IMG/VR virus record: IMGVR_UViG_3300032271_000680 | Coordinates: 1-36,276 of that record | Length of the DNA: 36,276 nt | Origin: a virus | Direction: 5' to 3' (one strand) | Shown here: in pieces, positions 27,020 through 28,867 of the stretch | Numbering within the stretch: the stretch's first letter is position 1 | Layout: the number at the start of each line of letters is the position of its first letter | Translations under genes and position numbers: made by a program | The notes under the pieces: model-generated | Databases searched by the model: none | Told to the model about the DNA's origin: nothing | What the model saw: the letters and a program-made list of their open reading frames with translations, nothing else

Positions 27020-27301
27020 ATGCGCGTGCGCTTGGGTGGAAAGTATTGGACGCTGCGCTTTGCCGCCAACATGCGCGACTATGGCGACATGGTTGATCCC
27101 GGCAAGGCATCCGGCAGGTTGATTCGAATCGGAACATGGCAGGCCGAAAGCGATAGGTTGGATACGGTCATTCACGAAGCGATCCACGCTATTCGTCCTG
27201 AACTAGATGAATCTGCTGTGGATTCGACCGCACGCGACATATCGCGTTTGCTCTGGCGTCTTGGGTATCGTCGCGTGCAGGATGGCACGATTCAAGAATG
27301 A
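27020..27301 (+). CDS. Small HExxH protein (minimal zinc peptidase-like fold)
   Basis: 93 aa. LDTVIHEAIHAIRPELDES (48-65) has the HExxH zinc motif with an acidic residue five to seven positions later; RLGGKYWTLRF at the start gives the expected beta-hairpin. Similar small phage proteins (SprT-like or toxin-like metallopeptidase minimal folds) are common and uncharacterised. AAGGA precedes the ATG, 10 bases after the phosphoesterase stop, so the two form one unit. Confidence 0.75.
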   Translation: MRVRLGGKYWTLRFAANMRDYGDMVDPGKASGRLIRIGTWQAESDRLDTVIHEAIHAIRPELDESAVDSTARDISRLLWRLGYRRVQDGTIQE

Positions 27302-27632
27302 AGCGCGTATACTGAAAGCGCGAAGGTGCGAGTGCCAGCCGTAAGGAAGCCAACGGCCTATTCTCGCTCGGGACGCGCCAGAAGGCCGCAAGGTACGCCG
27401 CGCGTCGATATCACCGATGGGGTAACGAATTGTCAGCCTCTCGCCGGGGCAGGACGCGCGCGGAACGAGCGTGTTGCTGCCCACTTGTGATGTTTCATCA
27501 CGCCGTAAGCGTTTCGGTAAGTCGCGGCCTCGCCGTAAGCAGAAAGCAAAACGCATAAGAGTTTCTTACGGGATCGTTTCCGCCATACTTGTTTTGATAT
27601 GTGGCAGAATCGCTCCAAGCAACCCGGCAAAT
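27302..27632 (+). ncRNA. Non-coding stretch rich in inverted repeats; candidate structured RNA
   Basis: There is no convincing gene in these 331 bases between convergent genes. A TATACT box (27308-27313) lies just ahead of a nested hairpin: GCGCG/CGCGC (27318-27322, 27374-27378), GCGAG/CTCGC (27328-27332, 27363-27367) and GCCGT/ACGGC (27338-27342, 27353-27357), with short internal loops. Further pairings are CGCGCGTC/GACGCGCG (27399-27406, 27453-27460), GTGATG/CATCAC (27487-27501) and CCGTAAG/CTTACGG (27533-27539, 27565-27571). CGCCGTAAGC occurs twice, 30 bases apart. No -35 box or T-run terminator was found, so strand and limits are uncertain. Confidence 0.4.
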
Positions 27633-28052
27633 TCAAATGAATTTTGTGAACTTGCTAATCGGGATATAGATGACTTGTTCCATGTCGCGCGGATCGTTTC
27701 GATCAACGCGACCGCCGTGTCCCTCTTCGAATGGCCCATCATTGAGCCAGACCCATCCTGCTGTATCAGACCATTGAACGATCAGTAGCGGCGAGAGGGA
27801 TAGTGAGGCGCAAGCCTGCACAATCGCATCGGCTTTCATCTTTGAAAGCAAGTACGTTGGATACTTGCACATGGCGTTACGTCGACACTTCACTTCAGCC
27901 AAAGCAACGATCATTTCATTACGCCAAATCTCATAATCCCAGTTGCACTTTGCGGGCATCTCGACCAACTGACATTGATAGCGTCGTTGAAATGCGTCCA
28001 TGACAGCACGCTGGCGCAATCGGTCTTGGGCGGTTTCATAGAGCGGTCGCAT
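27633..28052 (-). CDS. PD-(D/E)XK nuclease-like protein
   Basis: 139 aa. WDYEIWRNEMIVALAEVKCR (38-57) gives Asp39 followed by Glu53-Val-Lys55, the D-x(n)-ExK active site of the PD-(D/E)XK fold. This is followed by a helix (YLLSKMKADAIVQACASL) and a strand (PLLIVQWSD) in the expected order. Phage members serve as resolvases, homing or recombination nucleases; the substrate is unknown. The ATG sits one base after the T-run of an intrinsic terminator, so expression needs read-through. The only purine-rich ribosome site is inside the terminator's 3' arm. Confidence 0.68.
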   Translation of the reverse strand: MRPLYETAQDRLRQRAVMDAFQRRYQCQLVEMPAKCNWDYEIWRNEMIVALAEVKCRRNAMCKYPTYLLSKMKADAIVQACASLSLSPLLIVQWSDTAGWVWLNDGPFEEGHGGRVDRNDPRDMEQVIYIPISKFTKFI

Positions 28053-28090
28053 ATAAAACGCGCCCCGGACCTTGCGATCAACGGGGCGCG
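28053..28090 (-). terminator. Intrinsic terminator just before the nuclease start codon
   Basis: On the minus strand CGCGCCCCG (28090-28082) pairs with CGGGGCGCG (28067-28059) over 9 bp with a 14-base loop, followed by TTTTAT (28058-28053) and directly by the ATG at 28052. It is the clearest rho-independent terminator in the window, and its position between promoter and gene is the mark of attenuation. Confidence 0.8.
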
Positions 28091-28158
28091 CTTCCGGGGG
28101 CTAAAGAGTCCGGCTCGGGCAGCACAAGCGAACCCGCCACGCAAATGGAGCGCCGGAC
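28053..28158 (-). ncRNA. Compact folded leader or small RNA ending in an intrinsic terminator
   Basis: From the promoter at 28165-28192 the transcript should start near 28158, exactly at a 7-bp stem (GTCCGGC 28158-28152 with GCCGGAC 28114-28108). It then runs through a C/G-rich segment into the terminator at 28090-28053, giving about 106 nt. It may be a free small RNA or an attenuator/riboswitch controlling the nuclease gene. No known riboswitch class was recognised. Confidence 0.5.
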
Positions 28159-28164
28159 GCTCGC

Positions 28165-28192
28165 ATTATACTCCGGCGTTCGTGCGTGTCAA
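28165..28192 (-). promoter_or_regulatory. Leftward promoter of the folded leader and nuclease gene (P3)
   Basis: On the minus strand TTGACA (28192-28187), 16 bp, TATAAT (28170-28165): a near-perfect sigma-70 promoter. Unlike the other leftward promoters it has no GCACGKTGC palindrome downstream. It is divergent from the rightward promoter at 28214-28242, with 21 bp between the two -35 boxes. Confidence 0.85.
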
Positions 28193-28213: not shown

Positions 28214-28242
28214 TTGACAAGATGATACGCCCGTGATACCAT
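28214..28242 (+). promoter_or_regulatory. Rightward promoter of the replication genes
   Basis: TTGACA (28214-28219), 17 bp, TACCAT (28237-28242). Expected start near 28249, leaving a leader of about 117 bases before the ATG at 28367. It is back to back with P3, so one regulator bound between them could set both directions. Confidence 0.75.
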
Positions 28243-28272
28243 CATCGCAACGCTGGCCACGGTGGCGAGCGC

Positions 28273-28338
28273 GAGCGGCTTGGCAGCACGCTCAACATCT
28301 CAACCGGGCGCGGGCGGCGTAGTTACGCCAAGCCGCTC
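28273..28338 (+). promoter_or_regulatory. Folded 5' leader of the DUF1376 gene
   Basis: GAGCGGCTTGGC (28273-28284) and GCCAAGCCGCTC (28327-28338) are perfectly complementary over 12 bp and enclose 42 bases. The rest of the 117-base leader is also GC-rich and can extend the stem. It may hold a regulatory RNA structure or, as DNA, a palindromic site. No start codon with a ribosome site lies within it. Confidence 0.55.
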
Positions 28339-28366
28339 CGCCGTCCGCCCCGGCTTTGGATCATTC

Positions 28367-28867
28367 ATGGCTACACAATTTCCGTGGTTTCCGTTCTATG
28401 CGGCTGATTGGACGCTTTCCGTCATCGGAATGAATGCGACCCAGCGAGGGATCTACATATCTTTATTGGCTTATCAATGGGCGAACGGGTATGCGCCCGC
28501 ATGTCCGGAGCAATGCGGACGCATAGCCGGAGCATTGCCAATGCATCCCGATGATTGGGAAATTGTGCGAAGCAAATTCGTGGCCAATAAAGTTGGCATG
28601 GTGAATATGCGATTGGAAGAATGCCGCGAAGTTTGTAAGTCTAGGTCTGACAAGGCAAAGCGTGCTGCGGACAGAAAGTGGGCAGATGCTCGGAGCATGC
28701 GAACGCAATGCTCGGGGGATGCGAACGCATCGCTGGAGCAATGCAAGTCAGAGTCAGAGTCAGAGTCAGATATTAAACCCCCCATAGCCCCCCCTTCAAA
28801 GGGGGGGCAGCGAGGGCGACGAACTAAACGAGCGGACTTGATGGATCCGAACTGGTCTCCATTCTGA
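28367..28867 (+). CDS. DUF1376 / YdaU-like replication protein
   Basis: 166 aa from ATG 28367; the frame is open to 28262, but that part is the folded leader. MATQFPWFPFYAADWTLSVIG followed by NATQRGIYISLLAYQWANG and then PMHPDDWEIVRSKF matches the DUF1376 domain (residues 1-90), found in phage replication initiators or helicase-loader partners. The C-terminus is a linker with four SE pairs and a PPIAPPSKGGQRGRR tail, usual in this group. It is the only recognisable replication gene, so the phage probably relies on the host replisome. The longer C-terminal domain seen in some relatives is missing. Confidence 0.8.
   Translation: MATQFPWFPFYAADWTLSVIGMNATQRGIYISLLAYQWANGYAPACPEQCGRIAGALPMHPDDWEIVRSKFVANKVGMVNMRLEECREVCKSRSDKAKRAADRKWADARSMRTQCSGDANASLEQCKSESESESDIKPPIAPPSKGGQRGRRTKRADLMDPNWSPF
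28747..28808. repeat. Short tandem repeat and G/C-tract palindrome in the DUF1376 gene
   Basis: GTCAGA is repeated four times at 28747-28770 and encodes the SE linker. It is followed by arms GCCCCCCCTT (28787-28796) and AAGGGGGGGC (28799-28808) separated by two bases, encoding APPSKGGQ. Seven-base C and G homopolymers beside a hexamer repeat are slippage-prone, and the palindrome could pause or stop polymerase. Confidence 0.65.

Follow-up and report, generated by a model that had tools for sequence, protein, structure and literature searches.

The stretch of viral DNA analysed here (the window; 36,276 nucleotides, positions 1 to 36,276 of IMG/VR record IMGVR_UViG_3300032271_000680) most probably carries an autonomous small-RNA gene, belonging to a new phage RNA family without an entry in Rfam, that merely happens to lie in front of a nuclease gene in this phage (probability about 0.75; promoter, start and termination are predicted). 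Comparison among related loci shows, at the level of sequence, one transcription unit with a conserved structure that is independent of the gene downstream. A strong host-type (sigma-70) promoter would give rise to a transcript of approximately 106 nt, extending from the base of a stem designated P1 to its own intrinsic terminator, and this RNA would be tripartite, with a 5' domain folded as a three-way junction, then an exposed linker rich in C (GCCCCCGGAA), and lastly the terminator hairpin. The features concerned, all on the minus strand, are:

28165..28192, minus strand: sigma-70 promoter of the small RNA (TTGACA, 16 nt, TATAAT; 12/12), with equivalent -35/-10 boxes in P1-type relatives
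28053..28158, minus strand: predicted small RNA gene of ~106 nt, with a three-way-junction domain, a single-stranded linker and a terminator (covariance model; covariation over 33 members)
28108..28158, minus strand: 5' domain, in which P1 (GUCCGGC/GCCGGAC) surrounds P2 (CCA..UGG) and P3 (CGGG..CCCG) (predicted fold; relatives show two-sided changes in both P1 and P3)
28092..28107, minus strand: linker UCUUUAGCCCCCGGAA with the conserved motif of the family (mostly unpaired in the predicted fold)
28053..28092, minus strand: intrinsic terminator hairpin with a 5' UU bulge and a TTTTAT tail (d-score ~ +35; compensatory changes along the stem)
27633..28052, minus strand: PDDEXK_14 phage endonuclease gene (PF24579; Pfam E = 2.2e-35), the cargo gene behind the RNA

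Promoter, fold and terminator of the proposed small RNA

The first-pass annotation of this region, made from the letters alone, had proposed a consensus promoter that starts RNA at the first base of a 7-bp stem, a perfect intrinsic terminator some 106 nt further on, and a nuclease start codon one base beyond the terminator. The promoter (28192-28165) does match the sigma-70 consensus TTGACA-16-TATAAT at 12 of 12 positions, and the window contains two such perfect promoters compared with 0.00 expected from shuffled sequences. The predicted start of the RNA (~28158) is likewise the first base of the 7-bp stem P1, which encloses the two hairpins P2 and P3. The fold of the 107-nt stretch has a predicted energy of -54.5 kcal/mol (z = -2.97), equalled by one of 200 shuffles, and the linker UCUUUAGCCCCCG, between the 5' domain and the GC-rich terminator hairpin, is mostly unpaired in the predicted fold.

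The terminator also exists and ends in TTTTAT as described, but it is not perfect, since its structure is GCGCGCCCCG-UU-GAUC-GCAA-GGUC-CGGGGCGCG with a 2-nt UU bulge in the 5' arm. A simple terminator scan overlooked it because that scan requires five T in eight. The nuclease ATG (28052) directly abuts the TTTTAT, with zero bases rather than one between them, and GGGG, correctly placed within the 3' arm of the terminator, is the only Shine-Dalgarno-like run before the nuclease.

A short 5' bulge (UU, UC or UA before GAC or GAU) is common to most terminators of the family, the hairpin of the window (28056-28088) included. It is unusual for a plain terminator, and is perhaps a binding site.

Five more promoters of the form TTGACA-16-TATNNT are found on the minus strand of the window (35096, 34619, 34059, 31985 and 23215). 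Each has a short hairpin at the start of the transcript, followed by a ribosome site, making up a repeated promoter/5'-hairpin module; the hairpins contain CACGTTG in four modules and CACGGTG in one (for example, CGGCACGTTGCCG).

Conservation and covariation of the RNA family

A covariance model trained on eight relatives, the window being left out, has a single match in the window, at 28051-28158 on the minus strand (50.9 bits, E = 2e-9). The family consists of 83 loci, many of them closely related: the window and 82 further IMG/VR loci, which are those left after pattern scans had been filtered for a terminator hairpin and complemented by a third scan, this one with the 5' domain as its anchor. 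Among the phages related to the window phage by terminase, G006 and G025 carry a related element detected by DNA similarity, and others share the string CCCCCGGAA followed by a terminator hairpin.

The stems are conserved in relatives. In an alignment of 33 members, itself fitted to the structure, two-sided changes that keep the pairing occur at 28 of 36 pairs, and pairing holds in 96.8% of cells; the covariation score of 0.371 compares with 0.03-0.07 (maximum 0.071) for slid structures and is reached by none of 500 shuffles. RNAalifold, applied to an independent MAFFT alignment of eight sequences, identifies 12 compensatory pairs. Over the pairs of the family there are 101 G-U pairs versus 9 A-C mismatches, which indicates that the minus strand, as proposed, is the strand of the RNA.

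Because most members were found by means of motif patterns, sequence conservation within the family is partly a product of how its members were selected, a bias that is reduced by two of the scans. The P1-anchored scan, in which the linker motif was not used, returned 19 members, all of which possess both CCCCCGGA and a terminator; CCCCCGGA is also found in the variant G021/G027. A scan for AGCC-NNNNNN-GGCT, which leaves the hexaloop unspecified, returned 12 real members, every one with ACGGAC as the loop. This hexaloop hairpin, located between the 5' domain and the linker in many relatives, is missing in the window RNA as well as in L168, L183, L200 and other members. Among real members, natural variation of the hexaloop was seen only in L196, where it reads AUGGAC, with the change at the N of ANGGAN.

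In each well-resolved member of the P1 type, a -10 box (TATACCAT, TATAGT, TACCGT and similar sequences) precedes the P1 stem by 6-7 nt, and almost every member of the family has a positive terminator score at its end (d-scores from +9 to +42). Shorter members (L204, L231, L245 and L263) are without P1 and begin at the ACGGAC hairpin. The element can therefore be described as a promoter followed by an interchangeable 5' domain and a fixed linker and terminator. A second P1-type RNA in one phage (L175:874-984, minus strand, of record G007; 40 bits) has the terminator and lacks the CCCCCGGAA linker; thus, the 5' domain and the linker are separable.

No family of Rfam 15 (c4, abiF and others) matches the RNA above its gathering cut-off, and relaxed thresholds bring up noise only. 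A search with the exact terminator pattern gave no match, and tRNA genes were not found in the family loci. A hammerhead ribozyme, considered on account of the conserved CUGACGA, was rejected, as its core does not fit on inspection and it has no Rfam match.

Gene neighbourhood

The locus is bounded by two genes conserved in relatives, together with a promoter facing away from that of the small RNA:

28214..28242, plus strand: predicted divergent extended -10 promoter of the replication genes (TTGACA-17-TACCAT)
28262..28867, plus strand: primosomal/DUF1376-like gene, the divergent neighbour
27020..27301, plus strand: gene for a small HEAIH-motif protein, the convergent neighbour

Divergent replication genes (primosomal/orf28875/orf29116) are upstream of the RNA in 69 of the 83 loci, and the convergent HEAIH-motif gene is downstream in 52, in the same arrangement as in the window. 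The cargo gene between varies: across the 83 loci it encodes the MPRHANLP protein in 53, a PAPS-reductase-like protein in 14, and the nuclease in three, including the window. In L200 and L203 the RNA and the convergent gene have no cargo homologue between them; the next gene after the RNA in G007 is a convergent ORF of 548 codons. Nine loci have the RNA placed after a DUF932 gene instead. Three others (L204, L239 and L245) have a fresh promoter (TTGACC/TTGCAC-TATAGT) for the next gene, located after the terminator.

One PAPS-reductase-like cargo gene behind the RNA (L188:10784-11602) matches the defence-system model SspD of PADLOC (E = 3e-13). On the plus strand of the window, the leader of the primosomal gene (28243-28360) contains a perfect 12-bp inverted repeat (GAGCGGCTTGGC/GCCAAGCCGCTC).

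The nuclease and its link to the RNA

The nuclease of the window is 139 aa in length, and its start codon matches the family alignment of its homologues; the nuclease alone, as a probe of viral contigs, found no match, whereas the alignment as query succeeded. Relatives in isolate phages (Pseudomonas phages) are operon genes that, as far as annotation exists, immediately follow another gene. The RNA model was run on 84 nuclease loci and matches only L006 (same record as G001), weakly; among 29 nuclease loci that were inspected, most start codons overlap or trail an upstream ORF, and many have AGGAG-type ribosome sites. Thus, in most phages the nuclease comes without this leader. A distance of 3-4 kb separates the nuclease gene from the RNA in four loci (L245, L247, L260 and L263).

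In the window phage, with the flanking genes on the other strand and the start codon abutting the terminator, read-through is almost the only way in which the nuclease gene could be transcribed, and the only evident promoter for it is that of the small RNA. It is probably read by leakage through the terminator only, so that a low, leaky level of nuclease, made from read-through transcripts, would be expected, an expectation that concerns this phage only. The first-pass annotation had offered a stand-alone small RNA, with the nuclease reached by antitermination, as one of two possibilities: the stand-alone RNA is strongly supported and read-through is forced by the layout in the window phage, but there is no sign of a dedicated antitermination factor or ligand.

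Alternative explanations

The other possibility offered was an attenuator or riboswitch, a leader in which the sensing of a ligand or protein would open the terminator and so permit expression of the nuclease, for which the window makes a case: both the start codon and the only Shine-Dalgarno-like run are tied into the terminator, and the RNA is 1-200 nt upstream of the nuclease in the window phage, G001 and G025. Nevertheless, this explanation is very unlikely, because the RNA is conserved without the nuclease and most relatives of the nuclease are without the RNA. The nuclease is not directly behind the RNA in 80 of the 83 loci, where the members precede unrelated genes, a new promoter or a convergent gene, and most nuclease relatives follow another ORF, many with ordinary Shine-Dalgarno sequences, and have no such leader. 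An antiterminator is not conserved either, as the CCCCGGA/UCCGGGG pairing of the window is not kept in G006 and G025 by inspection. ToxIN-type units consist of a promoter, an RNA, an intrinsic terminator and a nuclease in that order. The same order in the window, with a leaky terminator, suggests a type III toxin-antitoxin-like unit, in which the RNA would be the antitoxin of a toxic nuclease; this is extremely improbable given that the RNA is without tandem repeats (none of at least 7 nt), that the nuclease belongs to PDDEXK_14 rather than to ToxN, CptN or TenpN and has no PADLOC match, and that the linkage of RNA and nuclease is absent in relatives.

The put RNAs act in cis on downstream operons (PMC9378689). 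An RNA of this kind, which modifies RNA polymerase to pass terminators, would resemble the window element in that putL and putR of phage HK022 are structured RNAs of ~70-110 nt in two structured parts, located at the start of a phage transcript, and in the window a terminator comes immediately after; however, the terminator is itself conserved within the element, and many members have a single exchangeable gene, or no same-strand gene at all, rather than an operon downstream, which makes put-like antitermination highly improbable. There is a comparably slight chance that the RNA is a decoy for a protein of the CsrA/RsmA type. CsrA/RsmA proteins bind at ANGGAN, which the ACGGAC hexaloop fits, and a second GGA is present in the linker; the constancy of the loop in the 12 members from the unspecified-loop scan agrees with such a role, as does the single variant, which alters only the N. 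On the other hand, at most one ANGGAN loop is seen per RNA and none in the window RNA, and the CCGGAA of the linker is a poor CsrA site. The hairpin being missing from the window RNA and from other members, binding of CsrA is not a function that the family could share.

Comparison with known phage RNAs

The OOP RNA of phage lambda is a short phage small RNA that has a promoter and an intrinsic terminator to itself and is encoded beside the replication genes and divergent from them. By analogy, the autonomous small RNA proposed here would have its nearest functional counterparts in OOP and other short phage RNAs of the autonomous kind, and it shares with OOP its length, a promoter and an intrinsic terminator of its own, and a position adjoining divergent replication genes. 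Unlike OOP, it overlaps no gene that it could silence, and it differs in sequence and structure, having a conserved three-way junction and a C-rich linker. Small RNAs of phages have been reviewed (PMC12197685).

The c4 antisense RNA of P1/P7 (RF01695) is similarly a structured phage RNA of ~100 nt upstream of a protein gene, but the window RNA has no Rfam match to RF01695 at E up to 10, and its complementarity to the downstream mRNA is not above background. The phage cis-regulatory RNAs of the manA/wcaG type, which are located in the leaders of the genes that they regulate (PMC2864571), are also structured RNAs near exchangeable auxiliary genes, whereas the window RNA stops short of the cargo gene, and the cargo gene often has a promoter of its own.

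Possible action in trans

The small RNA would act in trans, and its working part is likely to be the conserved single-stranded GCCCCCGG linker, joined in many members by the ACGGAC hexaloop. Among seven phage genomes searched for antisense targets, only the RNA's own complement is enriched, and pairing with the leaders of the divergent and downstream genes shows no excess (means of 10.3 and 10.5 nt for a phage's own leaders versus 10.4 and 10.2 nt for unrelated pairs). A host RNA or a host protein is therefore left as the partner: most likely, the linker would pair with a G-rich site in a host RNA, or alternatively a host RNA-binding protein may recognise the loop and the linker.

No match among isolate phages, plasmids and bacterial genomes is a real family member. 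The search of isolate phages with the DNA of the leader gave only chance matches of 35 nt in mycobacteriophages, and none of 78 pattern matches in bacterial genomes resembles a real member.

A second conserved element

The locus contains another conserved noncoding feature:

27307..27492, strand not assigned: second conserved, covarying element

This element of ~180 nt, which ends in AGTATAC and is not in Rfam, is present in 49 of the 69 loci with enough sequence, where it lies either on the side of the cargo position that faces the convergent gene or on the side that faces the RNA. Compensatory changes occur in 20 of its 35 predicted pairs. Wobble is rare on either strand (5 G-U and 11 A-C among 558 cells), unlike in the small RNA, and the element may act as a DNA structure (origin-like) or as a plus-strand RNA. 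The two elements together could form the replication-control locus of a large group of uncultured phages, in which the RNA would prime or limit the firing of an origin-like structure, the whole being placed between helicase-loader and recombination genes; this broader proposal is speculative and rather unlikely.

Significance

With the proposed autonomous small RNA, phages that are known from metagenomes alone gain an RNA family that Rfam lacks and that covariation strongly supports. Its consensus, with a fixed linker and terminator module and interchangeable 5' domains, is sufficiently defined for testing. The RNA also points to a conserved noncoding locus in which cargo genes can be exchanged, among them those for the nuclease and the PAPS-reductase-like protein with the PADLOC match to SspD. 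A conserved, autonomous RNA of this kind probably has a constant feature of the host as its target.
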